Shown: piece after piece, positions 10,197 to 41,214 of the stretch
How the letters are laid out: each line of letters begins with the position of its first letter
How positions within the stretch are numbered: the first letter of the stretch is position 1
IMG/VR virus record: IMGVR_UViG_3300046723_000326
Location: 1 to 51,420 of that record
Origin: a virus
Direction: 5' to 3' (one strand)
DNA: 51,420 nucleotides
Program-made: the position numbers and the translations under genes
Notes under the pieces: generated by a model
Told to the model about the DNA's origin: nothing
Seen by the model: only the letters and a program-made list of their open reading frames with translations
Databases searched by the model: none

Positions 10197-10294
10197 ACTT
10201 ACGAGAACCAATATCCCCTTTACTTTTGTTTCAGGTATTCTGAAAAATTTTTTGCCTCGCGGGCGCTCGCGCGTAAAGGGCCATAGGATATTGC
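10197..10294 (+). repeat. Mirror element, left copy
   Basis: 98 bp matching the reverse complement of 41116-41214. Two perfectly conserved blocks, TATCCCCTTTACTT (10212-10225) and a 25-bp GC-rich block at 10249-10273 (T5GCCTCGCGGG...CGCGCG), are separated by exactly 23 bp in both copies. Both copies also share an ACTTA at the outer end and GATATTGC at the inner end. It faces the rightward early block. Probably an early promoter/operator or origin-associated site. Confidence 0.8.
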
Positions 10295-10325
10295 GCCGCT
10301 TCACGATGAAGGTGTTGTCGAACTG

Positions 10326-10355
10326 TTGCATTCCCCCGGCGTCGGAGTGCATAGT
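10326..10355 (+). promoter_or_regulatory. Weak candidate rightward early promoter
   Basis: TTGCAT (10326-10331), 18-bp spacer, CATAGT (10350-10355). The 18-bp spacing matches the leftward promoters in this phage, but the -10 is poor. It lies between the mirror element and the leader hairpin. Confidence 0.25.
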
Positions 10356-10358
10356 GCT

Positions 10359-10427
10359 GGTTGCACCGTCCCCACTACGCTCATTCAGATGGACAGCCCG
10401 TTCGCATGAATGGGGGACGGTGCAGCC
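10359..10427 (+). promoter_or_regulatory. Large hairpin in the 5' leader of the early operon
   Basis: Outer arms 10359-10373 (GGTTGCACCGTCCCC) and 10413-10427 pair over 15 bp with one G-U; an inner stem CATTCA (10382-10387) / TGAATG (10407-10412) extends it. The hairpin ends seven bases before AGGAG (10434-10438), the ribosome site of the first gene. It may control translation, stability or elongation of the operon leader. Confidence 0.6.
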
Positions 10428-10444
10428 GAAAACAGGAGACTACC

Positions 10445-11041
10445 GTGGATGATGAAATTGTAGGCTTCACCGACGCACCGTCGGTGGAGGAGAGTAGGTC
10501 TCTGACCGAGCTAGGTCAAGAACTGCTGGATGTAGATACCGCCATTTCTTCCCTTGAGTCACAACTCAAGGAAAGAAAAGAACGGCGTCAGGCGCTGGTG
10601 ATGCGCGAGCTGCCGGACTACATGACCAAGATTGGTCAGGACCGAATTGGCCTGGAGGCATCTGGGGTCGATCTCGTACGCGAGGCGTATTATCACGCCA
10701 ACATTGCAGCAGACTGGGAGCCAGAGAAGCGCGAGACTGCGTTTCAGTGGCTCACGGATAATGGTCATGAAGACCTCATAAAGACGACCTTTACCATGCA
10801 GTTTCCGCGAAAGATGTATGCGGTCGCCGTGTGGCTCAAGAAGGAGGTCGCAAAGCTGAAGTTTCCCGGCAAGACTAAGAAGGGAGACATCGAAATGCCT
10901 GAGGCAGTCGTGACTCTGGGCGTACCGTGGAATACCCTGACGGCATTCGTCAAGGAACAGATCGAGAAGGGGGAAGCACTCCCGCTCGAAACACTCGGCG
11001 CAACGGTCGGGTGGATCGTCAAAGTCAAACAAAGGAAATGA
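10445..11041 (+). CDS. Conserved phage protein, first gene of early operon
   Basis: 198 residues from GTG at 10445, chosen because AGGAG lies six bases upstream; a longer frame exists but runs into the leader hairpin. The N-terminus (about 20-60) is a coiled coil (LLDVDTAISSLESQLKERKERR). The remainder has an alpha/beta pattern with WLTDNGHEDLIKT and LGVPWNTLTAFVKEQIEKG, resembling a family of phage proteins encoded next to single-strand-binding-like genes. Its role is unknown; proximity suggests replication or recombination. Confidence 0.55.
   Translation: MDDEIVGFTDAPSVEESRSLTELGQELLDVDTAISSLESQLKERKERRQALVMRELPDYMTKIGQDRIGLEASGVDLVREAYYHANIAADWEPEKRETAFQWLTDNGHEDLIKTTFTMQFPRKMYAVAVWLKKEVAKLKFPGKTKKGDIEMPEAVVTLGVPWNTLTAFVKEQIEKGEALPLETLGATVGWIVKVKQRK
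10552..10571. repeat. Short in-gene inverted repeat
   Basis: CCTTGAGT-CACA-ACTCAAGG, 8-bp perfect arms with a 4-base loop inside the coiled-coil coding region of the first early gene. Confidence 0.6.
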
Positions 11042-11049
11042 GGAATACG

Positions 11050-11871
11050 ATGGCACCAAGAAAGCAGGAAGTAGCGACAGTCGCGCCGAAGGCGTCACTG
11101 CCGTCCCGTTTTGAGGATATTACCGACGAGGCAAGACTGGCCGAGTTGGAGGGCGTCGAGGGCGCGGGCCTATCTGACAATGTCGAAGATCGTGGCATAC
11201 CACGAATTGCCATCGCTCAGAAGGGCAGCAAGCAGGTCAACAAGAAGGAGCCGAAGTTCATCGACGGGCTCGAGGTCGGCAACGTGTTCAACACGCTGAC
11301 CGGCGAGATGTGGGATGCCGAGGGCGACGGCCTTCCGATTCTCCCATGTTTCATGCGAGTGATCTGGAATCAGTGGACACCGCAGGATCAGGGTGGTGGA
11401 TTTCATGGATCACATCCGCGCGACTGCAACAAGGCGGCGATGGGTGCAAAGCCGAGGGAGGGGCGCAGAGACATCTTCGACTTACCCAACGGCGATGAAC
11501 TTGTCCTGACGCACGACTACTACTGCGTTCTTCCAGAATCATGGACCCACGTTGTGATCGGCATGAAGTCCACCGACCTGAGCGCATCACAGACACTTCA
11601 GGGTCTCATCGGCGCCCGCAAGGCGATGATCCAGAACCGTATGATCCAACTGCCCGCGTACGAGAAGGTCTTCACGCTCAAGACCGTCTACGACAAGAAT
11701 GACTCTGGCGACTGGTATCGCTACATCGTGTCAATCACGGGCGACAACGGCGATCCCAATCTTCGTGCGTACTGCAAGCAATTCGCGATGGCCTGCGCTC
11801 GTAATGAAGTCAAGGCATCGGCGCCTGATTCTGACGGTCCAGTTGCCGCTGGTGGTGATATTCCGGTCTAG
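11050..11871 (+). CDS. Conserved phage replication-region protein, possible ssDNA-binding
   Basis: 273 residues from ATG 11050 (GAGGA five bases upstream); an ATG at 11038 inside the previous stop is an alternative. Shows FEDITDEARLAELEG near the N-terminus, a mixed alpha/beta core and a Lys/Ala/Asp-rich tail. The segment GMKSTDLSASQTLQGLIGARK resembles proteins found beside phage primases and single-strand-binding proteins. No catalytic motif is visible. A ssDNA-binding or annealing accessory role is an inference from position only. Confidence 0.45.
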   Translation: MAPRKQEVATVAPKASLPSRFEDITDEARLAELEGVEGAGLSDNVEDRGIPRIAIAQKGSKQVNKKEPKFIDGLEVGNVFNTLTGEMWDAEGDGLPILPCFMRVIWNQWTPQDQGGGFHGSHPRDCNKAAMGAKPREGRRDIFDLPNGDELVLTHDYYCVLPESWTHVVIGMKSTDLSASQTLQGLIGARKAMIQNRMIQLPAYEKVFTLKTVYDKNDSGDWYRYIVSITGDNGDPNLRAYCKQFAMACARNEVKASAPDSDGPVAAGGDIPV

Positions 11872-11902
11872 TTGCTCTCCTGTTTCTATACCGGAAGCCA
11901 AC

Positions 11903-11931
11903 GGCCCTCCTCGCCCCACGCGGGGAGGGCC
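11903..11931 (+). terminator. GC-rich hairpin between early genes
   Basis: GGCCCT (11903-11908) pairs with AGGGCC (11926-11931), and CCCC (11914-11917) with GGGG (11922-11925). No T-run follows, so it is a processing or attenuation structure at least as likely as a true terminator. It fills the 89-bp gap before the primase. Confidence 0.35.
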
Positions 11932-11960
11932 CGAGGCAGTCTCATCACTAGGGCTGGAAA

Positions 11961-13493
11961 ATGTCAGACGCTGCGTCAAGAATGATGCGGTTGTTCGCGA
12001 GTTATGCCGAAGCCTACGGAACATACCAGACTCCGCAAGGAAAACAGCGCGCGAACGGCGTAAAGATGGAAATTAAGAGTTCCGCGAGAACTGTTCGCGA
12101 AACACTCACCATTGACATATGGACCGATCATCTATCAGGGCATAAGCCGCTGGGGATCATCCCTATTCAGAACGGTGACGTGTGCGAGTGGGGCTGCATC
12201 GACGTAGATCGCTACGACATCAACTTAGGTGAGATCGCTACTCAACTTGAGAAGGCGAAATTGCCGCTGGTCGTGTGTCGATCTAAGAGTGGTGGGGCTC
12301 ACATCTACATATTCTTCAGCAAACCAATAGATGCCGGAGAACTTCAGGAGAAATTGCGGGAGATCGCAGTTTCACTGGGTTTCGGCGACTGTGAGATATT
12401 CCCGAAGCAGACGACCGTGCTGCGCGAGAAGGGTGACGTTGGGAATTGGATCTGTGCGCCGTACTTCGCAGGTGACGAGACCGCGCGCTACAGTATCAAG
12501 CCGGGAGGCCAAGGAAGAACTCTCGATGAATTCCTCGATTACGCGGAGAAACTCCGTGTGTCACCGAATGAGTTCCTCACCGTAGCCGCCTCCCCGGCCC
12601 ACGACGAAAGTCTGGATGGTGGACCTCCATGTCTTCAGCACCTGACCACCTCGGGGTTCCCAGAGGGAACTCGAAACAACGGTCTATTCGCACTCGGAAC
12701 TTTCTGCAAGAAGAAGTTTGGGGATGACTGGGAGCGAGTTCTAGAGGACTACAATCGGAAATTCATGCAGCCACCTCTGAATACGGAGGAGGTCGCAGCA
12801 GTCGTCAAGTCTCTTCGTAAGAAGGACTACAACTACAAGTGTTCAGACAGTCCGTGCGTGAATCACTGCAATGCGATAGTCTGTAAGACGAGACGCTTCG
12901 GGGTAGGCGGGGGAGAGGAGTGGCCGAACCTGTCCGGTCTGTCTGTTCTGGAGACAGACCCGCCGATATGGTTCCTCACAGTCAACGGTCAGCGCATTGA
13001 GCTGGGTACCGATGAACTCATCATGTATCGTCGATTTCACAAGGTCTGCGTTGAGCGCCTGTATCTGTGCTTCTCGATGCTGACGGAGAAGGTGTGGGCG
13101 CAGCAGATTGGGACACTCATGAAAGAGGTGATAAAGATAGAGGCACCTCCAGAGGCTGGTGTCAAGGGACAATTCTTGGAACTCCTCCAAGAATTCTTGA
13201 CCAATCGTCACAGGGCTGAGACGCGCGAGGAGATAGCTGAGGGGAAGCCGTGGTTCGATGATGAGAAGCGTCTGTACTACTTCAGACTACAAGATCTACA
13301 CAACCATTTGATCCGGAATAAGTTTGACGAATTCGGCCGCAACCAGATCGCAGCTATTCTGCGTGAGATGGGTGGGAATCAGTACATGGTCGTCCGTGGT
13401 AAGGGGATGAATACGTTCTGTGTTGAGGAGCGGCACCTTGATGGTAAGATGTCGCCAGCCTCGCTGCCACCAAGTCTGAGGGAACCAATATGA
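11961..13493 (+). CDS. Archaeo-eukaryotic-type primase (TOTE-like AEP)
   Basis: 510 residues. The AEP catalytic motifs are clear: DVD at 81-83 (metal-binding), SGGAH at 110-114 (nucleotide-binding His) and EIFPKQ at 145-150, the signature of the TOTE/AEP subgroup. A helical primase-C-terminal region follows (about 215-290), then a Cys cluster (KCSDSPCVNHCNAIVC) likely to bind zinc or an Fe-S cluster. The last 170 residues are unassigned and have helical, winged-helix-like segments. It would make primers for the phage polymerase encoded downstream. No DnaB-type helicase domain is fused to it. Confidence 0.85.
   Translation: MSDAASRMMRLFASYAEAYGTYQTPQGKQRANGVKMEIKSSARTVRETLTIDIWTDHLSGHKPLGIIPIQNGDVCEWGCIDVDRYDINLGEIATQLEKAKLPLVVCRSKSGGAHIYIFFSKPIDAGELQEKLREIAVSLGFGDCEIFPKQTTVLREKGDVGNWICAPYFAGDETARYSIKPGGQGRTLDEFLDYAEKLRVSPNEFLTVAASPAHDESLDGGPPCLQHLTTSGFPEGTRNNGLFALGTFCKKKFGDDWERVLEDYNRKFMQPPLNTEEVAAVVKSLRKKDYNYKCSDSPCVNHCNAIVCKTRRFGVGGGEEWPNLSGLSVLETDPPIWFLTVNGQRIELGTDELIMYRRFHKVCVERLYLCFSMLTEKVWAQQIGTLMKEVIKIEAPPEAGVKGQFLELLQEFLTNRHRAETREEIAEGKPWFDDEKRLYYFRLQDLHNHLIRNKFDEFGRNQIAAILREMGGNQYMVVRGKGMNTFCVEERHLDGKMSPASLPPSLREPI
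12936..12960. repeat. Perfect in-gene inverted repeat
   Basis: GGTCTGTCT / AGACAGACC, 9-bp arms, 7-base loop, inside the primase gene. Confidence 0.65.
13171..13195. repeat. Perfect in-gene inverted repeat
   Basis: AATTCTTGGA / TCCAAGAATT, 10-bp arms, 5-base loop, inside the primase gene. Confidence 0.75.
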
Positions 13494-13810
13494 TCCGCCC
13501 AGCTTGGACTCGAAGAGTCAAGGTGGGTGATATCCTCACCAATCAGAAAAATCGTCGTGTCGTTAGGGCTGTATCATATAGACCAGATGGTTCTCTACAC
13601 GCTGTCTGTTTCGCGATCATGCATTGTTCATGGACGACACGCTGCTATACGACCTACATCTACAATGATCTATTGGCAGCGGGGTATGCCCCAACTGGGA
13701 AGAAGATAAGATTGGATCAACTAATTGATCGTAAGATTGCACGTGATCTGGAGTACGTGCATCGTCATAACCAGAAACTCGACTGCTGCGACGTGAGAGG
13801 TGTAATGTGA
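13490..13810 (+). CDS. Hypothetical protein
   Basis: 106 basic residues; the ATG overlaps the primase stop (ATGA). The first 60 residues look like a small beta barrel (VKVGDILTNQKNRRVVRAVSY), the C-terminus is helical and basic (IDRKIARDLEYVHRHNQK). Unrecognised. Translational coupling to the primase suggests an early replication-linked role. Confidence 0.5.
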   Translation: MIRPAWTRRVKVGDILTNQKNRRVVRAVSYRPDGSLHAVCFAIMHCSWTTRCYTTYIYNDLLAAGYAPTGKKIRLDQLIDRKIARDLEYVHRHNQKLDCCDVRGVM

Positions 13811-14124
13811 GAGACCGACGCGACGGCCTAATCATCAAGGTGGAGCACGGCGGGCGAGTGTTCGATGTCGGGTTCTACGAGAACCCGGATACAGGGCGAT
13901 GGGCCGAGTGCTTCTACTCGCGAGCTGGGAATATCAAGCAAGGCTCAGACTTCGACGCTCTGCTGTCGGACGCGTGTATCGCCGTCAGCAAACTCGTCGA
14001 GGCGGGTCACACATTCGCATCGCTCACGTTGACATTTGGGGAGGATCGGGCTCCCGGTCAGGACCGCGGTCCTCCCAGCAGCCTACTCGGTGCGATCTGT
14101 GCAGCAGGAGCGAAACTTGCCTGA
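13807..14124 (+). CDS. Hypothetical protein
   Basis: 105 residues from a GTG overlapping the previous stop (GTGA). Begins with a beta-rich segment (DGLIIKVEHGGRVFDVGFYENP) and ends in an Ala-rich helix. No family recognised. Its end overlaps the start of the helicase gene by 8 bp. A perfect 14-bp palindrome, AGGACCGCGGTCCT, lies at 14059-14072 within it. Confidence 0.5.
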   Translation: MRDRRDGLIIKVEHGGRVFDVGFYENPDTGRWAECFYSRAGNIKQGSDFDALLSDACIAVSKLVEAGHTFASLTLTFGEDRAPGQDRGPPSSLLGAICAAGAKLA

Positions 14125-15613
14125 GGTTATCTACGGTCCTCCTGGAACTGGAAAGACAGAAAATCTTCTCAAGATTGTTGAGGAGGAGATGGCGCGCGGG
14201 ACGCCAGCGGAGAAGATTGGGTTTATCACATTCACCAAGAAGGGGGCGCGAGAGGCGTCTGACAGAGCACGAGCGAAGTTTGGACTCTCCGAGTCCCAAC
14301 TCCGCTACTTCTCCACAATCCACGCCATCTGCTTTCGGTCCTTGGGCATGTCCAACGGCGACGTGCTCGAGGGTAAGAAGATGCGTGAGTTCGGCGACTG
14401 GATCGGATACGACGTCTCCGAGTTCAGAGCGTCGGACGAGGGTTCTACCTTCGGTTTCTCGCCTGCCGACCGTGCGCTGTTCATGGAGAATCTAGCACGA
14501 GTGCGCTGTATCTCGCTCAGAGCGCAGTATGACGAGGATGATGATGGGCTCCCGTGGGATATGGTGGATAAGATCAGTCGGGGTCTGGCGCAGTTCAAGA
14601 AGGATCGGCATCTACGTGACTATACCGACATGCTGGAGGAATTCGTCGAGGCTGGCTGGCATCCTCATCTGGAAGTGCTGCTTGTGGACGAGACGCAGGA
14701 CTTGAGTCTTCGGCAGCATGAGGTCGTGCAACTGCTGGCGACAGGATGTCGTCGCGTGGTCTACGCCGGTGATGATGATCAGGCGATATATCGGTGGGCT
14801 GGCGCCGATGTCGACAGCTTCATCGACATGGAGGGATCGTCGCGCGTGCTCGGTCAGTCTTGGCGCGTCCCCCGCCTCGCCCAGCAGGTTGCAGACTTTA
14901 TCATCGGTCGTGTTCATAATCGTCATGAGAAGGAGTGGAAACCTCGCCCTGAAGAAGGTGAGGTCGTTCGAGTCATGAAGCCTTGGGACGTTGATTATGG
15001 AGGCGAAGACGTCCTGATTTTAGGACGTAATGCCTCCATATTAAAACCCGTGATGCGCGGTCTAGAGCGAGACGGTGTAGTCTACGAATTCCGCGGCCAT
15101 CCATCAGTCCGCTCATCGCTGATAGAAGCGATCAGCTCGTGGGAGTCCTTACGATCAGGAGCTGAAGTGAGCGTCGACGAGGCGATAAAGGTCTACGAAT
15201 TCATGTCCAGCGGTCGCGGCGTTGCCAGAGGTCACAAGAAGCTTCCAAACTTCACCGCAGATGAGCGAGTTAATCTCGCTCAGTTGCGAGGTCAGGGCGG
15301 TCTGCAGACCGATACAATCTGGCATGATGCGATGGACCGCATTCCAGATGATGAGAAGAACTATATCATCAGAGCGCGGCGAGCGGGAGAGAAACTTCGT
15401 CGGAAACCACGAGTCAGAGTCTCAACAATTCATGGGATTAAGGGCGGTCAGGCCGAGCACGTGATAATCCTGAGGGACATGGCTCCTCGCACGCACGCAG
15501 AGATGCGGCTGCATCCGGAGGATGAGGCGCGCGTCTGGTATGTCGCCGCTACGCGCGTAAGGCAGAAGATGACCATCGTAGCACCGGGGACCAGTCTCTC
15601 GTACGATATGTAA
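14117..15613 (+). CDS. UvrD/PcrA-like superfamily 1 helicase
   Basis: 498 residues. I start at TTG 14117 because AGGAG stands six bases upstream and the frame upstream of it only shadows the previous gene; the protein then opens MPEVIYGPPGTGKT with the Walker A. Other SF1 motifs: VDETQDLS (motif II), AGDDDQAIYRWAGAD (motif III), VSTIHGIKGGQAEHV (motif V) and VAATRVRQKM (motif VI). It is compact, as in phage Dda-like helicases, and may be the main unwinding enzyme for replication here since no DnaB-type helicase is seen. Confidence 0.88.
   Translation: MPEVIYGPPGTGKTENLLKIVEEEMARGTPAEKIGFITFTKKGAREASDRARAKFGLSESQLRYFSTIHAICFRSLGMSNGDVLEGKKMREFGDWIGYDVSEFRASDEGSTFGFSPADRALFMENLARVRCISLRAQYDEDDDGLPWDMVDKISRGLAQFKKDRHLRDYTDMLEEFVEAGWHPHLEVLLVDETQDLSLRQHEVVQLLATGCRRVVYAGDDDQAIYRWAGADVDSFIDMEGSSRVLGQSWRVPRLAQQVADFIIGRVHNRHEKEWKPRPEEGEVVRVMKPWDVDYGGEDVLILGRNASILKPVMRGLERDGVVYEFRGHPSVRSSLIEAISSWESLRSGAEVSVDEAIKVYEFMSSGRGVARGHKKLPNFTADERVNLAQLRGQGGLQTDTIWHDAMDRIPDDEKNYIIRARRAGEKLRRKPRVRVSTIHGIKGGQAEHVIILRDMAPRTHAEMRLHPEDEARVWYVAATRVRQKMTIVAPGTSLSYDM
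14996..15040. repeat. Nested inverted repeat inside helicase gene
   Basis: Outer arms TATGGAGGC / GCCTCCATA (9 bp) enclose inner arms ACGTCCT / AGGACGT (7 bp). All lies in coding sequence. Confidence 0.7.
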
Positions 15614-15632
15614 AATAATTTGGACCGAGGAC

Positions 15633-15661
15633 TTGCATTGGGCCTTTTCTTGGAGTAAGTT
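15633..15661 (+). promoter_or_regulatory. Candidate promoter for the 109-aa paralogue
   Basis: TTGCAT (15633-15638), 17-bp spacer, TAAGTT (15656-15661), in the 97-bp gap after the helicase. Paired repeats TTGGACCG (15620-15627) and CGGTCCAA (15681-15688) flank it. Together with the strong terminator downstream it would make the next gene an independent transcription unit. Confidence 0.35.
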
Positions 15662-15710
15662 ATGTCTATCAGACCAGTGACGGTCCAACCCAAGAGAATG
15701 GAGAAGTATC

Positions 15711-16040
15711 ATGGCGAAAGCCGCAAAAGCCGCAGAACCCACAAATCCCGAAGTGAAGCCGCCCGCAGCGGCGAAAGAGCCGAAGCCCGCGAAGGAGAAG
15801 GTCGAGCGCAAGGTCGGCGGTCACGCCCTCACGGCGGTGATCACGATGGGCAGCAACAAGGAGGGAATTCCCTACGGTCCCAAGAACAACCCGAAGCGCG
15901 CGAACTCGGCGTCGGCCGACCGCTTCAATCTCTACAAGGGCGGCATGACGATCGAGAAGACGTTGGCCGCTGGCGTGACGTCGGGCGACATCCTGTTCGA
16001 CAGCGACCCGAAGCGCAAGTTCATCGAGATTACGGACTAA
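15711..16040 (+). CDS. Small basic protein of a four-member phage paralogue family (copy 1)
   Basis: 109 residues. The N-terminal 45 residues are Ala/Pro/Lys-rich and probably disordered. The C-terminal 60 residues hold a module (RFNLYKGGMTIEKTLAAG...GDILFDSDPKRKFIEI) that recurs in three leftward genes at 35758-36273, 42408-42815 and 43921-44244. Consensus: RF.LY..GMT...Y......  D..WD.....I.I. Function unknown; the lysine-rich tail plus compact module suggests nucleic-acid binding. It has its own candidate promoter and a strong terminator, so it may be highly expressed. Confidence 0.7.
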   Translation: MAKAAKAAEPTNPEVKPPAAAKEPKPAKEKVERKVGGHALTAVITMGSNKEGIPYGPKNNPKRANSASADRFNLYKGGMTIEKTLAAGVTSGDILFDSDPKRKFIEITD

Positions 16041-16063
16041 TCGCCGGCGATATCACGTTACAG

Positions 16064-16099
16064 AGCCCTCGTGCGTCGAAAGATGCACGAGGGCTTTTT
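16064..16099 (+). terminator. Strong Rho-independent terminator
   Basis: AGCCCTCGTGC (16064-16074) pairs perfectly with GCACGAGGGCT (16085-16095) over 11 bp, with a 10-base loop and a T-run (16095-16099). The most convincing intrinsic terminator in the window. It separates the small paralogue from the modification cluster. Confidence 0.9.
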
Positions 16100-16154
16100 C
16101 GTACCTATCGTCTGAGTTTATACTTTAGGCTGCACCCACAGAGGAGATATGAAA

Positions 16155-17093
16155 ATGGACGTGAGAGTTATCCAGAGTGCTGAGACAACTGTGAAGAAGT
16201 ATGTCTTCACAAAGGAGGACGCAGTTCTCGAGGCTGTCCTCTACAAGTATCCAGACTACGAGTCCAGAACAGTCATCTGCTGTTCGACGATGAGTGGTTG
16301 CCCCGTCGGCTGTCGCTTCTGCGGCGCTGGTGACTATTTCGTTGGCTCATGTACCGGCGATGAGATCATGGAGCAGGTCGAGCGCTGCATTCATGATACC
16401 GGGGTTGAAGTCTCGAACATTCAGCGGCTCCAGATCATGTTTATGTCGATGGGAGAGCCGCTGCTCAATCGGAGCGGTATGCTCGACGCTCTCCCCCGGC
16501 TGTATCGTGCATACCCGAACGCGCGGCTGCTCATCTCTACAATCGGACCAAGGATCGACTACGGTTGGGTCAACTCTATCTCAGCAGCGATACCAACAAT
16601 CGGTCTTCAATTCTCCATTCATGAGTCAACCGATGAGGCGCGCTCCAAACTCATCCCATTCCAGAAGAAATTGACCATTCAGGAAATTGCCGTCGTCGGT
16701 GATCGATGGGCACACGTGACCGGACGTCGTCCATTCTTCAACTACTGCGCGGCCGATCACAACTCTGGTGATATTGACGCAGACCGGATTGCGGCGGCAC
16801 TGACACCTTCGACGTGGGAGGCAACAATCTCTGTCATCTGCGAACGCAACGAGGGCCTACCAGCGCGGAATCAGCATCAGCGTGATCTTGCTGAGGATTT
16901 CGCCGGGAAGCTTCTCGCGCGTGGGTTCAACGTGCGCGTCTTCGACCCAGCCGGTCAGGATGATATCGGCGGCGGCTGTGGTCAACTCTGGTTTGTGCAG
17001 GACTGGATGGAGAAGCATCCCGGTCTGGCTCATCCCAGCATTGGACACGGTCGTCCTAAAGTTCACGTGCCGGCGATGGTGCAGCATGGCTGA
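16155..17093 (+). CDS. RlmN/Cfr-like dual-cysteine radical SAM enzyme
   Basis: 312 residues from ATG 16155, eight bases after GAGGAG; an in-frame ATG at 16149 is too close to that site. The CxxxCxxC cluster (Cys49, Cys53, Cys56) would bind the 4Fe-4S cluster and SAM. Two more cysteines match the methyl-transfer pair of RlmN/Cfr: Cys42, seven residues before the cluster, and Cys275 in CGQLW. A GEPLL segment (SMGEPLL) also fits. RlmN and Cfr methylate C2 or C8 of adenosine in RNA. Here the gene opens a cluster of nucleotide-modification genes, so the substrate could be RNA or a DNA base. It follows a terminator and a weak TATACT -10 (16119-16124). Confidence 0.85.
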   Translation: MDVRVIQSAETTVKKYVFTKEDAVLEAVLYKYPDYESRTVICCSTMSGCPVGCRFCGAGDYFVGSCTGDEIMEQVERCIHDTGVEVSNIQRLQIMFMSMGEPLLNRSGMLDALPRLYRAYPNARLLISTIGPRIDYGWVNSISAAIPTIGLQFSIHESTDEARSKLIPFQKKLTIQEIAVVGDRWAHVTGRRPFFNYCAADHNSGDIDADRIAAALTPSTWEATISVICERNEGLPARNQHQRDLAEDFAGKLLARGFNVRVFDPAGQDDIGGGCGQLWFVQDWMEKHPGLAHPSIGHGRPKVHVPAMVQHG

Positions 17094-35000: not shown

Positions 35001-35026
35001 GAGTACTCTCCTGCAATGTTGGGTTA

Positions 35027-35056
35027 AGGTTACACTAGGTAGATGGGGGATGTAAA
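35027..35056 (-). promoter_or_regulatory. Leftward promoter, TTTACA-18-TAACCT
   Basis: Read leftward: TTTACA (35056-35051), 18-bp spacer, TAACCT (35032-35027). TTTACATCC is shared with the promoters at 38030-38059 and 41022-41051. Weak -10. Confidence 0.45.
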
Positions 35057-35376
35057 GGCACTGTCGTTCTTCGGTACTCCCGAAGGACGTCGTTGCAGAT
35101 TGCGACAGCCTCGACGATGTGAGTCCACTTGGCACGAAAGAAGACGGACTGAGTGTGACCGTCGAGATAGGTTCCTCTGAGCTCACACACGTAGCGCGAG
35201 CGGGGGTTGTTCCCGCCGTGCTGATTCTTCTGGAACAGGTGAAGTGAGGCTCGACCCGTAGGGGCGATAAGCCTCACTTCACGATGATAGATCCCGACGT
35301 TGTTCGTGTACCACGGCTCGCCGGATAGGGCGCGCACGATCGCGCAGGCGACTTCCGCCTGCGTTGTTCGCGGCAT
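35035..35376 (-). CDS. Hypothetical protein
   Basis: 113 residues from ATG 35376. A TTG at 35448 with AGGTGA upstream would add 24 residues. Composition is protein-like (GIYHREVRLIAP, SVFFRAKWTHIVEAVAICNDVLREY by position) with an alpha/beta pattern. Two hairpins lie inside it (35241-35280 and 35343-35363) and one just before the ATG. No family recognised. Confidence 0.5.
   Translation of the reverse strand: MPRTTQAEVACAIVRALSGEPWYTNNVGIYHREVRLIAPTGRASLHLFQKNQHGGNNPRSRYVCELRGTYLDGHTQSVFFRAKWTHIVEAVAICNDVLREYRRTTVPLHPPST
35241..35280. repeat. Perfect 11-bp inverted repeat
   Basis: GAAGTGAGGCT / AGCCTCACTTC with an 18-base loop, inside the 113-aa gene. Confidence 0.7.
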
Positions 35377-35379
35377 TGC

Positions 35380-35415
35380 GATCGCTTCCCGAATTGAGAA
35401 ATTCAGGAAGCGATC
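35380..35415. repeat. Large hairpin at gene start
   Basis: Arms of 16 bp with one mismatch (GATCGCTTCCCGAATT / AATTCAGGAAGCGATC), loop GAGA, ending four bases from ATG 35376. In the mRNA it would hide the ribosome-binding stretch, so it may control translation. Confidence 0.75.
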
Positions 35416-35446
35416 CCACGTCTTCGGGCTCTTTTTCCAGGGCGGC

Positions 35447-35472
35447 AACGATCACCTACTTGGGTGATCGTT
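35447..35472. repeat. Perfect 10-bp hairpin between genes
   Basis: AACGATCACC / GGTGATCGTT, 6-base loop, at the junction of the 113-aa gene and the DUF3846-type gene. No T-run, so not a classical terminator. Confidence 0.7.
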
Positions 35473-35758
35473 GGACTATAGTGACACAGCCGACGAGGAA
35501 CGGCGTGCCGCGCAGGGGACGACCCTCGAGGCACTTCATCCAGTGGGTGGTTGCGAGATTATTGCGAGGAAGGCCGCGAGCGATCCCATCCTCGTTGACC
35601 CATACGGTCGCGGCGCGGCCCTCGTAACGATCGAAAGTCGGGACGTGCTCTATTGACCCCCCAACAAACTCTTGGAGTTTGTTGAGAGGTGGCTTGCGCT
35701 CACTGTCGTGCGTGGTGAGGGTACCATCTCCGTGGATGAGTGTGGTGCGGTAGGACAT
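35456..35758 (-). CDS. DUF3846-type protein
   Basis: 100 residues from ATG 35758 with GGAGAC upstream. LQEFVGGSIEHVPTF, then VWVNEDGIARGLPRNNLA, is the DUF3846 pattern (VGG.ie......vyvNEeG...glp.N). Common in phages and plasmids; function unknown. A hairpin, CAACAAACTC/GAGTTTGTTG (35662-35684), lies in the coding part. Confidence 0.7.
   Translation of the reverse strand: MSYRTTLIHGDGTLTTHDSERKPPLNKLQEFVGGSIEHVPTFDRYEGRAATVWVNEDGIARGLPRNNLATTHWMKCLEGRPLRGTPFLVGCVTIVQRSPK
35662..35684. repeat. Perfect 10-bp in-gene hairpin
   Basis: CAACAAACTC / GAGTTTGTTG, 3-base loop, in the DUF3846-type gene. Confidence 0.7.
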
Positions 35759-36273
35759 CACTCTGTCTCCAGTGTCACGAAGCCGTGGCTGGTGTCCCAG
35801 TTGACGTCTCCTTTGGTGAGGCCACGAGCGATGCACTCGGCGACGGTGGCTCCGACTGTCCAGTGAGAGTAGCGAGTGAAAGACTCGCTACTCGGTCTCT
35901 TCGGATTGGGGGCGACCGCCGCAACGCGGCGCGTGTCTACAACGCGCGCAGGTGATGGGTTAGAAGGGCTGCGGACCACTCTGGGCGCTCGCGGAACGTG
36001 CCGCGTTATGGGTTTACCCACCAACAGCTCAAGGGCTTGTACGACCCCCGCTGTACTCTCGCGGCACATGGGGAAAACGAGAGCCAAGTGGTCGATCGGA
36101 TGGTTGTCGAGAGCCTGCAGAAAGTCGGGACCCGAAGGTGGATCGTCGCGCTCGGGGTCTGGGTGTGGAAATGTCGGGTCACGCTTGACCAGACAGTCCC
36201 ACGCGATCTTGCGGAGCGGCGGCGGCATCGACATGATCGTCTGTCTGTGCTCTGGCTTCAGGAAGTGGTTCAT
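35758..36273 (-). CDS. Protein with the shared C-terminal module (paralogue copy 2)
   Basis: 171 residues from ATG 36273 with CAGGAG upstream. A helical N-terminal part (HFLKPEHRQTIMSMP) with a Pro-rich middle and a basic linker (RAPRVVRSP) is followed by a C-terminal module RYSHWTVGATVAECIARG, then GDVNWDTSHGFVTL, that aligns with the end of the proteins at 15711-16040, 42408-42815 and 43921-44244. This copy has a divergent start (SHWTVGAT for ALYKTGMT), so it may have a distinct role. Confidence 0.65.
   Translation of the reverse strand: MNHFLKPEHRQTIMSMPPPLRKIAWDCLVKRDPTFPHPDPERDDPPSGPDFLQALDNHPIDHLALVFPMCRESTAGVVQALELLVGKPITRHVPRAPRVVRSPSNPSPARVVDTRRVAAVAPNPKRPSSESFTRYSHWTVGATVAECIARGLTKGDVNWDTSHGFVTLETE
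35867..35893. repeat. Perfect 11-bp in-gene hairpin
   Basis: GAGTAGCGAGT / ACTCGCTACTC, loop GAAAG, within the coding region of paralogue copy 2. Confidence 0.75.
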
Positions 36274-36589
36274 GGTGATTCTCCTGTTTGAGTATGAATT
36301 CGTGGTACCAGATGTCGCACCTATCGGATACATCGTCGAGTGCGATGATGGTACCGGGGAAGTCAGTCCATCGGTACCACGGTCGGCCGGGCATCTTCGG
36401 ATGCTCCTCGTACTGGAGTCGACCAAAGCGAAGCTGTAGTTGTCGAGCCTGATCCTCATGATTGACAGAGAAGACTGGGAGAGCCACCCCGTTGAAGGAT
36501 GACTCTCCAAGTCGACGATAGCTGATGGTCCCGTCCTTGCAGATATCCACAAGGACGGGACGAATCAGACGACTGGCGCTGAGAGGCAT
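36179..36589 (-). CDS. Hypothetical protein
   Basis: 136 residues from ATG 36589; no strong ribosome site, but it overlaps the end of the upstream gene by 25 bp. It also overlaps paralogue copy 2 by 95 bp, which is long for this genome. A beta-rich core (VLVDICKDGTISYRRLGESS, WYRWTDFPGTIIALD by position) supports a real protein; the last 30 residues read through the next gene's start. Confidence 0.45.
   Translation of the reverse strand: MPLSASRLIRPVLVDICKDGTISYRRLGESSFNGVALPVFSVNHEDQARQLQLRFGRLQYEEHPKMPGRPWYRWTDFPGTIIALDDVSDRCDIWYHEFILKQENHHEPLPEARAQTDDHVDAAAAPQDRVGLSGQA
36528..36561. repeat. Perfect 12-bp in-gene hairpin
   Basis: GTCCCGTCCTTG / CAAGGACGGGAC, 10-base loop, inside the 136-aa gene near its start. 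Confidence 0.75.
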
Positions 36590-36789
36590 TGCAGTCCGTT
36601 CTCCACTCGCAGGCGGCCGAGGTCGATCTGACCCTGTCGGCGCGCGGTCTCCTGCGTCGACTGGTGCGGGGTGTAGCGCGAGGGCTTCACGCGCCATCGA
36701 TCCGGAGCCGTCGATCTGGCAGAGATAGCTGGAGAGACGAAGCCGGCGAGACCGACGCTGGATAGTGCGAAAAGATGGCGGTTGAACAT
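36565..36789 (-). CDS. Small secreted protein candidate
   Basis: 74 residues. Residues 1-23 (MFNRHLFALSSVGLAGFVSPAISA) read by position as a signal peptide ending in AISA; the mature part is basic and short. The leader resembles that of the phage sulfatase (NR..., hydrophobic core, P, A.A), but has RH in place of RR. Coupled to the upstream stop (TGAGCCATG). Unknown function; might be a remnant of another exported protein. Confidence 0.45.
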   Translation of the reverse strand: MFNRHLFALSSVGLAGFVSPAISARSTAPDRWRVKPSRYTPHQSTQETARRQGQIDLGRLRVENGLQCLSAPVV

Positions 36790-36792
36790 GGC

Positions 36793-36981
36793 TCAGCCTG
36801 CGAACATGATGGTGGAGTGATCGGGGCCGGTCATCACATATCGCTGGGTGTCCGGGGAGGGGTTCTTGCCGGCGAGCTGGAGGAAGGTGGCGTAGACGTC
36901 GGACTGGACATCACCGTGAGAGACAACGCGAGTGATGACTGGGCTGTCGGCGTCGCGAGGTACTTCGAGAACTCGGTACAT
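36793..36981 (-). CDS. Hypothetical small protein
   Basis: 62 residues with AAGGAT nine bases upstream. Beta-rich (VPRDADSPVITRVVSHGDVQSD and RYVMTGPDHSTIMF by position). Not recognised. The 79-bp gap upstream contains the hairpin CCCCCGGT/ACCGGGGG (37013-37037). Confidence 0.5.
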   Translation of the reverse strand: MYRVLEVPRDADSPVITRVVSHGDVQSDVYATFLQLAGKNPSPDTQRYVMTGPDHSTIMFAG

Positions 36982-37060
36982 GGTAGGGATCCTTCTGTTG
37001 GGGGTGAGAGCACCCCCGGTCCATGGGGAACCGGGGGCTCTGAAAAGACTGGGGTGAACG

Positions 37061-37426
37061 CTAGGGTTTGACCACCTCCTCTCCAGTGATTAGGTCGTGG
37101 GTCTCGATCCACGTGGCGATTTGTTGGAAGGACTTGCCGTCGTCGTTCTGGACGGCGAGGGTGTTCTGGACACTGTCGGACATCCCCACCTCGGTGAGTG
37201 TGTGGTCTGCGAGGTAATCGTCGCCGTCGTACTCATCGTTCTTCTTGGCGCGATTGTGGACGAAGGTGCTGTGGTCGTCGGTCAGGGTCCAGCCTTTGGG
37301 GTCGATGATGTCAGCGAGAACGCCGAGGCAGCAGTAACCGTCGCAGGTGCGGAGAGATGACTGGGTGCGCTGGTATCGGCCCGAGCGCAGAGCGTCGGTC
37401 CAGCGTTGGCGAAGTTCTGGTATCAC
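37061..37426 (-). CDS. Phage protein, tandem paralogue A
   Basis: 121 residues from GTG 37426 with AGGAG seven bases upstream and a GTGA overlap with its paralogue. Core: WTDALRSGRYQRTQSSLRT, CCLGVLADIIDPKGW and IATWIETHDLITG. This is a known recurrent phage family (ALRSG.Y.Q....LR....CCLGVL). Function unknown. The adjacent gene shares the same blocks, so they arose by tandem duplication and have diverged in the middle. Confidence 0.7.
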   Translation of the reverse strand: MIPELRQRWTDALRSGRYQRTQSSLRTCDGYCCLGVLADIIDPKGWTLTDDHSTFVHNRAKKNDEYDGDDYLADHTLTEVGMSDSVQNTLAVQNDDGKSFQQIATWIETHDLITGEEVVKP

Positions 37427-37779
37427 AGCAAGTCTCCTGTTAAGAGATCGTGGGTCTCGATCCATGTGGCGATCTCGGTGAATGGTTTGTCCTCGTCATT
37501 CATCATGGCAAGATCGTCACAGACCACACCGGAAATCCCCAAATCGTTGGTAGCTTGGAGATTGAGATTTGTTGATGGGATGCCATCTTTGGCGTGCGGT
37601 GGTTTCGGCCTGTTGCCGAGTTCGTGATTTTGCCCACACCAGCCGGAGGGGTTGACCACGTCGACCAGAACGCCGAGGCAGCAGTGAGAGTTGTCATCGT
37701 TGCGAAGACGACTCCTCCCCTGTGTGTACTTGCCGGAGCGCAGAGCGGCGACCCAGCGTTCGACGAGCGACTTGTCCAT
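37423..37779 (-). CDS. Phage protein, tandem paralogue B
   Basis: 118 residues with GGAGGA upstream. WVAALRSGKYTQGRSRLRN, CCLGVLVDVVNPSGW and IATWIETHDLLTG match paralogue A. Middle region differs. Function unknown; the duplication suggests two related targets or a regulatory pair. Confidence 0.7.
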   Translation of the reverse strand: MDKSLVERWVAALRSGKYTQGRSRLRNDDNSHCCLGVLVDVVNPSGWCGQNHELGNRPKPPHAKDGIPSTNLNLQATNDLGISGVVCDDLAMMNDEDKPFTEIATWIETHDLLTGDLL

Positions 37780-38006
37780 CAGCGGCAGTCCTCCGGCGAC
37801 CAGATCACATTGTCACCATCCTTATGGTGACTCTTGGCGCCGCGCTCGACGACCTTGACTAGGAGCACGGTGCGCTCGGCGAGGTTGCCTCGGGCGTCGA
37901 AGTATGTGTGGATCTTGGCGTCGTAGCACTGGGCCAGAGACCCGAATGTGCGATGGGTCACGTACTGACCGACGCTGGGATGATCGGTGTGTGGTGTTGA
38001 CATCAT
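37779..38006 (-). CDS. Hypothetical protein
   Basis: 75 residues (ATG 38006 or the adjacent ATG 38003), with GCAGGAGAG upstream. Beta-rich centre (YDAKIHTYFDARGNLAERTVLLVKVVERG by position 28-55). Not recognised. First gene after the 38.03-kb promoter. Confidence 0.55.
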   Translation of the reverse strand: MMSTPHTDHPSVGQYVTHRTFGSLAQCYDAKIHTYFDARGNLAERTVLLVKVVERGAKSHHKDGDNVIWSPEDCR

Positions 38007-38029
38007 AGCTCTCCTGCTAGTGTGACAAC

Positions 38030-38059
38030 AGTATATTACAGTTTGATAACGGATGTAAA
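38030..38059 (-). promoter_or_regulatory. Leftward promoter, TTTACA-18-TATACT
   Basis: Read leftward: TTTACA (38059-38054), 18-bp spacer, TATACT (38035-38030), about 24 bp before the ATG. The best -10 of the leftward set and preceded by the same TTTACATCC. Confidence 0.65.
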
Positions 38060-38095
38060 GCCCTCGGGCCGCTACTCGCGGTCCGATGGTTTAGA

Positions 38096-38293
38096 TCATG
38101 TCCGCTCGAAGTTTCGTATGGCGACGTTGTCCTCCGTCAGCCTCGCCGAGCGAGTGTCGTCGTAGCGGATCACTCGGTGATATGCGGCGAGCGCCTCGGT
38201 CTGGTCGGTGTACTCGCGCTCGTCGGTCGAGGTGTCAGTGTCGCTGAACTCGTCGAAAATGTTATTCGTCCAGGTGAGGTGGTAGGTGGTCAT
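38096..38293 (-). CDS. Hypothetical small acidic protein
   Basis: 65 residues from ATG 38293 with AAGGAG upstream. MTTYHLTWTNNIFDEFSD start, acidic middle, helix near the end. Not recognised. The gap downstream has GGCCGC-TACTC-GCGGTCC. Confidence 0.55.
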   Translation of the reverse strand: MTTYHLTWTNNIFDEFSDTDTSTDEREYTDQTEALAAYHRVIRYDDTRSARLTEDNVAIRNFERT

Positions 38294-38721
38294 ACGTTCT
38301 CCTTTCGGACTCGGCCATTGGGGGACACGATGTAAATCGGTCGATGAAGCTTTCTGGCGTAGCGCACGGTCGCCCACGTTCCCGATCGCATCTGCTCGAG
38401 CGCGCCGCGAGGAGCGGCGATCAGCACGGAGGTGCAGTCAACGATTCTGTGGTTGCGCTCGAGGAAGGGACGCGGCGTATCAGCGACGTCATATCGAGAG
38501 AACGCTCGGCGTGTGTCGTCCTGCGGCGGGTGTAGGTGGATATGGAAGCCGAGAGCGTCGGCGACGCACCCGGCTCGGTAGTCGGCGTTCACGCAGTCTC
38601 CATGATGAAACCAGCGTTCATATGGAGTGCGACAGTTACGAAGAATCTCGCGCACTTGGTCGAGCTGCTCGTCGCGCATTGTGTCGCTCGTGCCGGTGAA
38701 GCCTATGTGGATCTGGGTCAT
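38290..38721 (-). CDS. SLOG/DprA-like Rossmann-fold protein
   Basis: 143 residues from ATG 38721. HIGFTGTSDTM, HHGDCVNADY, HPP, FLERNHRIVDCTSVLIAAP, RSGTWATVRYAR and IVSP line up with small SLOG-fold proteins, which bind a nucleotide or nucleotide-derived signal. In other contexts such proteins sense or process nucleotide signals; here it could counter or report on such signalling. Catalysis is not proven. Confidence 0.7.
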   Translation of the reverse strand: MTQIHIGFTGTSDTMRDEQLDQVREILRNCRTPYERWFHHGDCVNADYRAGCVADALGFHIHLHPPQDDTRRAFSRYDVADTPRPFLERNHRIVDCTSVLIAAPRGALEQMRSGTWATVRYARKLHRPIYIVSPNGRVRKENV

Positions 38722-38725
38722 GGTG

Positions 38726-39106
38726 TCAGTCCGAACTGTCCACGGTGTAGGCGTAGTCGCAGTCGGGCTTCGTGCATCGGTATTCGTGCAGGCAGCGGCC
38801 GACGGTGCGCTCGGTGAAGGTGTGGTTGCAGCGAGCGGCTCGGACGAAGGTGGTGGGAGGGGCGGGGAGGGCTTCGTGTACGCGACGGACGAAGCCGACA
38901 GCGGTGTCATCGCTGTAGCAGAATAGGACGAGGTTGGTGGCGTAGAATGGGTGATCTTTGGGAGTGTGGACGAGCCACGCTCGCTCCTTGGAGGTTGGGT
39001 CGGCAGCTCCGCTATCGAACTTCTGCCAGAAGTCGGCTTCGGTGATGGTGGTGAGGTTCGGGGGCGGCTCGTTGAAGTGGCCGAGCCACGAGGGTCGGGT
39101 AGTCAT
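38726..39106 (-). CDS. Hypothetical protein with Cys/His cluster
   Basis: 126 residues with AGGAGA upstream. First half helical; C-terminus has CNHTFTERTVGRC and CTKPDC, consistent with a zinc ribbon. Weak coupling to the SLOG-like gene. Not recognised. Confidence 0.55.
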   Translation of the reverse strand: MTTRPSWLGHFNEPPPNLTTITEADFWQKFDSGAADPTSKERAWLVHTPKDHPFYATNLVLFCYSDDTAVGFVRRVHEALPAPPTTFVRAARCNHTFTERTVGRCLHEYRCTKPDCDYAYTVDSSD

Positions 39107-39140
39107 CTTAGTCTCCTATCTTAGTGTGGGCAAGCCGTCG

Positions 39141-39293
39141 TCAGTCAGTCGTGATACCTCGAACTAGACCAATCACCGCTGCGACGATACTGGAGGTGTA
39201 GCCGATGATGCCATTGTAGCGGAGGTAGGTGTCGAGATGTTCGTAGACTGTCAGGGTTGGGATACCTCCGTCGTCCTCGTACGCCTCGTTCAA
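39141..39293 (-). CDS. Small membrane protein (50 aa)
   Basis: A 50-codon frame from TTG 39293 in a TTGA overlap with the previous stop. Acidic start (LNEAYEDDGG) and one hydrophobic helix (GIIGYTSSIVAAVIGLV). No ribosome site other than coupling. Fills an otherwise empty gap, so probably real. Confidence 0.4.
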   Translation of the reverse strand: MNEAYEDDGGIPTLTVYEHLDTYLRYNGIIGYTSSIVAAVIGLVRGITTD

Positions 39294-39598
39294 GTCACGT
39301 TGGATGGGCGGGGGAGTTTAAGGAATGGGATGTTGGGGCTGGTGTCGGGGGTGAAGTACTCGGTGAGGTCGGCAAGGACACTCTGTCGACCCTGCTGGTA
39401 CTCCTCGAAGCGGGCGATGCCCTCCCGCTCGGTCATGAGGTCGGCGATGCGGGTGATCAGGGCTTCGTCGCGCTCGGTGATGGTGTCGTCGAACTGTTCT
39501 GTAATGATCTCGAGCAGTTGCTCGCGGTCTGCGTCGGCTTGGGTACAGCCGGGGAGCATCTGGGTGGTGACTCCGGGTGGGAGGTTGGAGTTGGTCAT
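39290..39598 (-). CDS. Hypothetical helical protein
   Basis: 102 residues, ATGA overlap with the upstream gene. Long helix (REQLLEIITEQFDDTITERDEALITRIADL by position 25-54), possibly coiled coil. Not recognised. Confidence 0.5.
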   Translation of the reverse strand: MTNSNLPPGVTTQMLPGCTQADADREQLLEIITEQFDDTITERDEALITRIADLMTEREGIARFEEYQQGRQSVLADLTEYFTPDTSPNIPFLKLPRPSNVT

Positions 39599-39915
39599 GG
39601 GGTTGCCTCGTTGAGTTGGATGCGTTGCCAGATTGCCTGAGCGGCTGTCCTACATTCACTCTGGGTGGAGATGGGGTGGTTCGTGGCGGAGTTGGGCGGG
39701 CAGTCGGGCGGGTATATCAGGCAGGCCATCTTCGTGTTGTAGCCTCCTCGGCCGATGAAGCTGATGTAGGAGGTGGTGTCGCCGCTCGTGGGGTAGCGCA
39801 GAGGTTGGTCGGCTACGTAGAGCTGTCGGTTCTTTACGAGGACTCGGCGGTTGCTGAGGAGGCGGAGTTGGGTGGCGACCTCAGCTATGGCTTCGTCGAG
39901 GGTTTGAGGTGTCAT
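39595..39915 (-). CDS. Hypothetical protein
   Basis: 106 residues from ATG 39915 with GAGGA upstream. N-terminal helix, then beta strands (RRVLVKNRQLYVADQPLRYP), and a C-terminal SECRTAAQAIWQRIQ helix. Not recognised. Confidence 0.5.
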   Translation of the reverse strand: MTPQTLDEAIAEVATQLRLLSNRRVLVKNRQLYVADQPLRYPTSGDTTSYISFIGRGGYNTKMACLIYPPDCPPNSATNHPISTQSECRTAAQAIWQRIQLNEATP

Positions 39916-40079
39916 GCGGTCCTCGTGTCGGTGGGTGGGTTGGGGTTGGGGACGTAGGTCATAGTGGAGCTGACCAGCAGCTCGCGCTGCCAAACGCTCG
40001 TGCGGTAGAGCCATCCTCCTGGGACTGGCAGGCGGAACGTTCCGTCGGTCACGCGCTCCCACTTCGGTTCTGTTGGCAT
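39912..40079 (-). CDS. Small phage protein (55 aa)
   Basis: ATG 40079 has GAGGAG upstream and the stop overlaps the next gene's ATG. WERVTDGTFRLPVPGGWLYRT is a pattern seen in several short phage proteins; the end is Pro-rich. Function unknown. Confidence 0.55.
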   Translation of the reverse strand: MPTEPKWERVTDGTFRLPVPGGWLYRTSVWQRELLVSSTMTYVPNPNPPTDTRTA

Positions 40080-40083
40080 GTGG

Positions 40084-40317
40084 TCAGCTCCTCGCGTCGT
40101 ACTTTATGGGGAATACGTCGTCGCTCATCGCCGTGAGCATCAACGGCGAGTTATAGACGCTCACCTGGAGATATGTCTCGCCGTCAGACTGGATCACGAC
40201 GGTGCCTGTGTCTGTCAGGTACAGGCCGTCTCCCTCATATCTGAATGGGAAGTCGTAGTCGACTGGAAGTTTGGCTCGGGTCGTGTGTGCAGTCCAGTCT
40301 GGGATTATCTGTATCAT
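40084..40317 (-). CDS. Hypothetical protein
   Basis: 77 residues with GAGGACC upstream, coupled by ATGA upstream. Beta-rich: FPFRYEGDGLYLTDTGTVVIQSDGETYLQVSV read by position 24-55. Not recognised. Confidence 0.5.
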   Translation of the reverse strand: MIQIIPDWTAHTTRAKLPVDYDFPFRYEGDGLYLTDTGTVVIQSDGETYLQVSVYNSPLMLTAMSDDVFPIKYDARS

Positions 40318-40535
40318 AGCAGGTCCTCTCGGGTGGCACGGTCGTACAGGTAGGTCTCCAGTAGGAGTAGGTCCGGGCTGTACTGAGTTTCACCATTCCA
40401 GTCGAGCTGGTAGAGCTGGTGGGTGTTGGAGTGGTAGATCAGGATGACGTTTCGGCCGGGACCGTACTCGTAGGCGGCGTGACCTTCGTCGGTCGTGCAG
40501 GCGGCGCGGGTCGCGCGCCATTCGTCGAGGGTCAT
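40314..40535 (-). CDS. Hypothetical protein
   Basis: 73 residues in an ATGA overlap with the upstream gene. Begins MTLDEWRATRAACTTDEGH and continues with two strands (NVILIYHSNTHQLYQLDWNGE by position). Not recognised. Confidence 0.5.
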   Translation of the reverse strand: MTLDEWRATRAACTTDEGHAAYEYGPGRNVILIYHSNTHQLYQLDWNGETQYSPDLLLLETYLYDRATREDLL

Positions 40536-40780
40536 GGTTGGTTGATTCCTGATTTGCAGCCCCAGAGGAAGCTGGACCAGCGAGCGGGGGTCGGGGAGTT
40601 GGGACTGGTGGTGACGAGGACCACGGTGCGGATTTGGGATGGGTCGTCGTGTCGGCTGTTGTATCCGATTGCGGCGGCATCCTCGCTTCGGTAGGGGTGG
40701 CACTGGTCGTAGCGGAGCATGTCGAGTGGGAACTCTCCGCGTCCCATCACGGTGAAGTAGCGTAGTGTGTCGGCTGGCAT
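40532..40780 (-). CDS. Hypothetical protein
   Basis: 82 residues with GAGGACC upstream, overlapping the previous gene by 34 bp. Sequence pattern RTVVLVTTSPNSPTPARWSSFLWG near the end. Not recognised; the ribosome site matches that of the 77-aa gene. Confidence 0.5.
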   Translation of the reverse strand: MPADTLRYFTVMGRGEFPLDMLRYDQCHPYRSEDAAAIGYNSRHDDPSQIRTVVLVTTSPNSPTPARWSSFLWGCKSGINQP

Positions 40781-40983
40781 GGCAGGTCCTCTCTGTTGAA
40801 ATTGTCCCAGTCGTCCTGAGCGTCCTGCAAGATAGTGCTGTGCAGGAGGGCGGACATTCGGGCCGCTGTGGCCTCACGGTCCAGGCGCTTCTGTTCTAGA
40901 CGAGCGGCGCACAGTCTGTCCCACTTTGCGCGGGCACGGCTCACGTCGAACGGGTGCATCGGCGCGGTCGGGGTTATGGGCAT
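40747..40983 (-). CDS. First gene of the leftward early block
   Basis: 78 residues from ATG 40983 with AGGAGA upstream. A helical, basic central part (RARAKWDRLCAARLEQKRLDREATAARM by position) and an acidic turn. Not recognised; as the first product of the leftward promoter it may act early in infection. Confidence 0.55.
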   Translation of the reverse strand: MPITPTAPMHPFDVSRARAKWDRLCAARLEQKRLDREATAARMSALLHSTILQDAQDDWDNFNREDLPCQPTHYATSP

Positions 40984-41021
40984 GATGATTGGGTCTCCTA
41001 TACGGAGTGTCAGTGTGGGTA

Positions 41022-41051
41022 ATTGTACTGTGGGCGGATGGTGGATGTAAA
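41022..41051 (-). promoter_or_regulatory. Main leftward early promoter, TTTACA-18-TACAAT
   Basis: Read leftward: TTTACA (41051-41046), 18-bp spacer, TACAAT (41027-41022), close to the sigma70 consensus. It would start transcription near 41015, about 30 bases before the first leftward gene. Confidence 0.7.
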
Positions 41052-41115
41052 GGGGTCGTCTACGGTCTGGGTGGGGTGTGAGGTAAAGATTACGAACATT
41101 AAGGATTACGTGGCG

Positions 41116-41214
41116 GCAATATCTGTTTGGTCGACAGCGCGCGAGCGCCCGCGAGGCAAAAATTTTTTTCAAAACATTGGAATGGAAGTAAAGGGGATAG
41201 TCTTTCGGTTAAGT
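41116..41214 (-). repeat. Mirror element, right copy
   Basis: Reverse complement of the 10197-10294 element. The 25-bp block lies at 41138-41162 and the 14-bp block at 41186-41199, again 23 bp apart. It faces the leftward early block and lies about 65 bp from its promoter. Confidence 0.8.

Follow-up and report, generated by a model that had tools for sequence, protein, structure and literature searches.

What is the function of an element that a virus carries in two distant and mutually inverted copies? The question is raised by the IMG/VR virus record IMGVR_UViG_3300046723_000326, of which positions 1 to 51,420 were analysed (this whole stretch of 51,420 nucleotides is referred to as the window). 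An element of about 98 bp located at 10197-10294 recurs in inverted orientation at 41116-41214, and these are named copy 1 and copy 2, respectively. A preliminary description considered the element as a control region heading two converging early gene blocks, and proposed that the pair may serve a regulator shared by both early operons, paired replication origins, or inversion of the intervening region. Among these readings, paired replication origins fit the data best, the shared early regulator is weakened and the invertible segment is unsupported. We consider it rather probable that the copies are two origin-like sites bound by one putative phage-encoded initiator, with copy 1 as the principal origin and copy 2 as an additional one and/or a fork barrier.

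Inverted pair of elements in the window

Copy 1 (plus strand) aligns with copy 2 (minus strand) over approximately 10177-10294 versus 41116-41234, and the ungapped inverted repeat between them covers 97 nt (72%). The inverted pair was confirmed by gapped local alignment, with a score of 46 as compared to a mean of 11.9 and a maximum of 16 for 200 dinucleotide-shuffled pairs. As previously described, two blocks of 14 bp and 25 bp are exact and spaced by 23 bp in both copies. A GC-rich 20-mer was found in two places only, the copies themselves, when up to 3 mismatches were allowed (two matches in 0/100 shuffles), and the 10-mer of the A/T tract, AAAAATTTTT, is confined to both copies within the window. 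The element successively displays CCCCTTTACTT, TTCTG or TTTTG, the A/T tract and a GC-rich near-palindrome, to which copy 1 adds an inverted CCCTTTAC box. Direct repeats in the window are limited to short repeat pairs, one beside each copy. The components are as follows:

10197..10294, plus strand: copy 1 of the paired element (similarity reaches about 10177)
10212..10225, plus strand: 14-bp exact block TATCCCCTTTACTT, copy 1
10243..10252, plus strand: A/T tract AAAAATTTTT, copy 1
10249..10273, plus strand: 25-bp exact block with the GC-rich near-palindrome, copy 1
10273..10280, minus strand: CCCTTTAC box of copy 1, inverted relative to the box at 10216-10223; the two flank the A/T tract
10060..10250, no strand: AT-rich flank of copy 1, helicase side; its orthologous 150-bp stretch in the complete relative G001 ranks first in AT content there
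10143..10174, plus strand: two 13-bp direct repeats TCAATGTAAAATG, 19 bp apart, adjoining copy 1
41116..41214, minus strand: copy 2 of the paired element (similarity reaches about 41234)
41138..41162, minus strand: 25-bp exact block, copy 2
41158..41167, minus strand: A/T tract, copy 2
41186..41199, minus strand: 14-bp exact block, copy 2
41218..41257, minus strand: two 14-bp direct repeats, CCCCTTTGGAAACA-like, 26 bp apart, adjoining copy 2

A reading of the GC-rich block as a hairpin or terminator was rejected, as it folds no better than shuffles on either strand. No tRNA was detected in the window, the Rfam family search gave no match, and neither did a distant blastn search for the copy 1 region among named phages.

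The presence of two copies is not an assembly error, a possibility that the preliminary description had raised, because near-identical contigs carry them: both copies are found in IMGVR_UViG_3300046516_000835 (G001; 63,964 bp), and copy 2 in IMGVR_UViG_3300049448_000159 (G002), a fragment near-identical to the window. Since G001 has identical 127-bp ends, it was considered as a complete circle of 63,837 bp; the window, which is collinear with G001, thus covers only part of a circular map measuring about 64 kb. The two arcs between the copies measure 32.7 and 31.1 kb on the G001 circle. Differences between the window and G001 (99.9% identical) cluster in the leftward early block, at 31209-40502, and comprise about 1.4 kb of additional DNA in G001.

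Conservation of the pair in an AT-rich clade of relatives

Relatives were collected by a primase-alignment scan (80 loci, part of a much larger set). Self-comparison of the intergenic region on the side of the SNF2/HepA-type helicase revealed the pair in 2 of 13 genomes, G001 and G015 (IMGVR_UViG_3300006929_000064); weak self-matches in G016 and G017 were not scored as pairs. The G015 element yielded a motif, and a profile for the AT-rich clade was then built on 36 distinct seeds from among the matches listed. A pattern scan based on the A/T tract returned at least 120 stretches, mostly unrelated, and was set aside.

A search for relatives of TerS, independent of the motif, gave 80 TerS loci, 76 of which could be scored (at least 320 bp available upstream). 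The element was present upstream of TerS in 76/76 scorable loci, in one inverse orientation throughout and at 166-194 bp from TerS. Thirty contigs were examined over their whole length, comprising 15 with both helicase and TerS, 10 without TerS and 5 without helicase. Exactly two mutually inverted elements were found in every contig holding both genes (15/15, of which 10 had been recovered via TerS and not via the motif). In these contigs copy 1 lies 90-163 bp away from the start of the helicase gene; copy 2 precedes TerS by 155-194 bp and points against the early-gene direction, and 16.6-22.8 kb separate the two. Contigs lacking TerS carried copy 1 only, and those lacking the helicase copy 2 only.

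In the clade, the element is composed of octamer-like repeats CTATTACT/CTATTAGA, the motif ATTCTG, an A/T tract and, behind the tract, repeats in inverse orientation; direct repeats are clear at these sites. The gene that flanks the repeats of either copy reads outward, away from the element. The early arc of the clade is almost entirely unidirectional, so that copy 2 heads no early operon there, and the convergent early arrangement is a trait of the window's own lineage.

Concerted evolution of the two copies of a genome was rejected as a general rule, since same-site matches across genomes often exceed the match of a copy with its own partner (copy 1 of G030 scores 105 against copy 1 of G032, and 47 against its own copy 2). 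A distant blastn search with a clade element gave no match, and no TerS homologue was confirmed by a search in bacterial genomes.

Comparable pairs in named phages

In the Mesyanzhinovviridae phages LKO4, CN2 and Sonora, the intergenic regions upstream of the helicase and of TerS are alike, with scores of 59, 87 and 41 (shuffle maxima of 18, 15 and 17, respectively), and they contain the most AT-rich DNA of the genome, or nearly so. As in the clade, the pair is located upstream of helicase and TerS and combines repeats with an AT-rich stretch; unlike in the window and the clade, it is in direct orientation, helicase and TerS pointing the same way, and has another repeat sequence. What is constant across groups is where the element sits with respect to helicase and TerS, and not its absolute orientation. 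Blastn with the CN2 element retrieved 62 named records and 71 places, including two places each in the 8 Bordetella records and one further record among those listed. In phage YuA, an annotated promoter underlies the stretch matching the CN2 element.

In phage DSL-LC04 (L016), the TerS operon is preceded by a long intergenic region (about 20474-21118) that is more AT-rich than any other place of the genome, and the helicase side is short and ordinary. This phage is perhaps a one-copy version.

AT content and strand skew

The most AT-rich 150-bp window is located at copy 1 in 16/16 pair-bearing genomes (G001 and the 15 clade contigs), and copy 2 ranks near the top, with 2-18 overlapping windows higher. 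Of 10 relatives in which the pair went undetected (G003-G005, G007-G013), none had its top AT window on the helicase side. In G017, G018 and G025, which are partial contigs with no detected pair, it was on the helicase side nonetheless.

In G001 the copies are located at 4,491 and 35,623, and an unconstrained two-change-point fit of GC skew set its breaks at 4,800 and 35,600, about 300 and 30 bp from them, respectively. GC skew is +0.090 in the early arc and -0.035 in the late arc of this genome, and in the window early arc it is positive in both the rightward (+0.098) and the leftward block (+0.084). In a regression on G001, GC skew follows the arc (t 7.0) and not the coding strand (t 0.5), and AT skew follows the coding strand (t 10.9). 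The gain of the fit was reached in 0/1,000 block permutations. In G001, the skew points to forks that start at copy 1 and end near copy 2.

Genes around the two copies

Copy 1 is located between the SNF2/HepA-type helicase and the rightward early block, and copy 2 between the leftward early block and the gene at 41519-42064, beyond which come lysis, TerL, portal and structural genes. The preliminary description correctly placed the point of convergence near 27.6 kb, as early genes are on the plus strand up to 27532 and on the minus strand from 27633.

8505..10001, minus strand: SNF2/HepA-type helicase; a homologue adjoins copy 1 in 15/15 pair-bearing clade contigs
10442..27532, plus strand: rightward early block (Pam3 gp33-like and gp34-like proteins, AEP primase, UvrD helicase, base-modification genes, DNA polymerase A)
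27633..40983, minus strand: leftward early block, reversed relative to the clade, whose early arc runs almost wholly one way
41022..41051, minus strand: candidate sigma-70-like promoter TTTACA-18-TACAAT of the leftward early block (consensus match only), about 90 bp beyond copy 2 and outside the element
41519..42064, plus strand: gene at the TerS-like position beside copy 2 (no family match)
45374..46687, plus strand: terminase large subunit (TerL), first of the structural genes

A single-sequence structure model of the 41519 gene had a mean pLDDT of 46.5 and was not used. Among the window proteins scanned, which included part of the small open reading frames (ORFs), AEP primase, UvrD, SNF2 and PolA were matched and no DnaB-type helicase was found.

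Several other features were recorded in the early blocks. The leader of 146 nt preceding the gp33-like gene folds far better than shuffles (z -3.9, 0/200) and contains a 15-nt inverted repeat with a 39-nt loop (10359-10427), which is possibly an attenuator or another form of leader control. A radical SAM protein, a 5-hmdU kinase, a TET-associated glycosyltransferase and a thymidylate-synthase-like gene (16149-21298) form a hypermodified-thymine set, and the phage DNA probably carries modified bases. The leftward block includes a sulfatase-family gene with a signal-like N-terminus (29792-31177), an unusual cargo for a phage, and a small Cro/C1-type helix-turn-helix protein (33763-33996) that is a candidate regulator. 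Two neighbouring ORFs at 37061-37779 share repeated segments (37080/37433 and 37289/37639) and represent a tandem gene duplication.

Two proposed origin-like sites and comparison with known systems

Both copies are likely bound by one common protein, and the pair is more than a shared early promoter. Theta replication would likely start mainly at copy 1, which separates the helicase from the replication operon. Copy 2 borders on the late and packaging genes and would be a second origin and/or the place where forks meet or stall; this could generate the concatemers that are packaged by the headful mechanism next to the terminase, a scheme proposed for oriR of phage SPP1. The analysis establishes that there are two copies only, their placement and fixed relative orientation, their repeats and A/T tract, their extreme AT content and the GC-skew switch of the window lineage; protein binding, initiation, fork direction, fork stalling and coupling to packaging are inferred.

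Herpes simplex virus oriL and oriS, of which there is more than one per genome, also consist of an A/T tract flanked by inverted initiator boxes and lie in divergent intergenic regions. This likeness of layout is an analogy only, as the virus and its proteins are unrelated. A parallel is provided by SPP1, as described in passages of two articles (PMC6316719, PMC3485210): its oriL and oriR are two distant origins of similar make-up, with direct repeats and an AT-rich unwinding region, bound by one protein, one located beside the replication genes and the other in the late region. According to the same passages, the origins are about 12-13 kb apart, oriL lying within gene 38, and replication depends on gp38, gp39 and a DnaB-type helicase (gp38-gp39-gp40); theta replication begins at oriL, and the proposal is that the fork is halted by gp38 bound at oriR, which would set off concatemer synthesis (PMC6316719, PMC3485210). 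The genomes studied here likewise contain two distant sites of the same organisation, and a candidate AT-rich unwinding region is present as judged on AT content alone. Going by these accounts of SPP1, the likeness lies in distant similar sites, one by the replication genes and the other by the late region, and the difference in the proteins, which are an AEP primase, UvrD and SNF2 helicases and polymerase A in the window, instead of gp38, gp39 and a DnaB-type helicase.

A number of results weigh against the origin reading. The pair, found in G001, in G002 (copy 2) and in 15/15 clade contigs, was undetected in 11/13 relatives by self-comparison of the helicase-side intergenic region, and no convincing pair was seen in 13 further contigs, many of which are fragments. 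The clade profile had no significant match with the window copies (best E 1.7), so that only the same place and layout are claimed, homology being not proven, and placement of the copies at opposite poles is limited to the window lineage (clade arcs of 16.6-22.8 kb). The window contains no perfect DnaA box (TTWTNCACA), and no initiator could be named among its scanned proteins. With respect to skew, permutations of 1-kb blocks came close to the observed gain (15,432 versus 15,738), and resampled breakpoints scatter, the start falling within 1 kb of copy 1 in 261/500. Early minus late GC skew in the clade is -0.002 (mean of 14 contigs, p 0.27), skew following the coding strand there, and LKO4, CN2 and Sonora have no significant breaks (p 0.27, 0.07 and 0.37, respectively). 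Because neither the clade nor these three phages show a switch, it is only for the window lineage that the skew speaks for a function in replication; an origin/terminus reading was rejected as a general rule, the clade being without a skew switch.

Alternative explanations

The strongest rival, which we judge unlikely but which could hold alongside the origin reading, is a paired regulatory region at which one phage or host regulator times the genes pointing away from the repeat sides (helicase at copy 1, TerS and late genes at copy 2). It agrees with the transcription of the repeat-side gene away from the element at both clade copies, with the retention of the element upstream of the same two genes in Mesyanzhinovviridae, and with the annotated promoter that the YuA match overlies; in other phages, large gaps between genes are moreover described as containing clusters of sites for host regulators (PMC9437464). 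However, no sigma-70-like promoter was found inside either copy, nor in or near copy 1, and a repressor or activator site requires neither the most AT-rich stretch of the genome nor a GC-skew switch. A narrower version, in which a promoter pair heads both converging early operons, is improbable. Its geometry is true in the window and a promoter candidate occurs just past copy 2, but this candidate falls outside the element, and the clade copy 2, upstream of TerS and against the early-gene direction in 15/15 contigs, faces the end and not the start of the early arc; this arrangement and the lack of a promoter within the copies are what weakens the idea of one regulator for both early operons.

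A packaging (pac-like) or partition site duplicated beside the helicase would account for the position of copy 2 close upstream of TerS in the clade, but it is very improbable given that copy 1 adjoins replication genes and is the more AT-rich copy. Recombination sites that invert the 31-kb arc are the least credible explanation. Inverted copies with exact blocks would suit them, but the exact matches measure just 14 and 25 bp, a single arrangement was observed in the window, in G001 and in 15/15 clade contigs (assembled contigs, not reads), and the copies are direct in Mesyanzhinovviridae, where recombination would delete.

Significance of the pair

The pair was described nowhere that we found in the open-licence PubMed Central literature, and print outside that could hold it. 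For most phages beyond a few models, where and how replication starts and switches to concatemers is unknown. Tentatively, the pair may reflect a widespread two-site replication system, in which one initiator would read a helicase-side origin and a terminase-side site, the latter acting as a programmed fork barrier that starts concatemers by the packaging genes; as the element would move together with helicase and terminase, the pair would outlast inversions of whole gene blocks. The conserved pair can be found from sequence, including in cultured phages of Pseudomonas, Bordetella and Stenotrophomonas, in which it provides a landmark for locating their initiators. The SPP1 model of two origins and a fork barrier thereby becomes testable in unrelated phages with different replication proteins.

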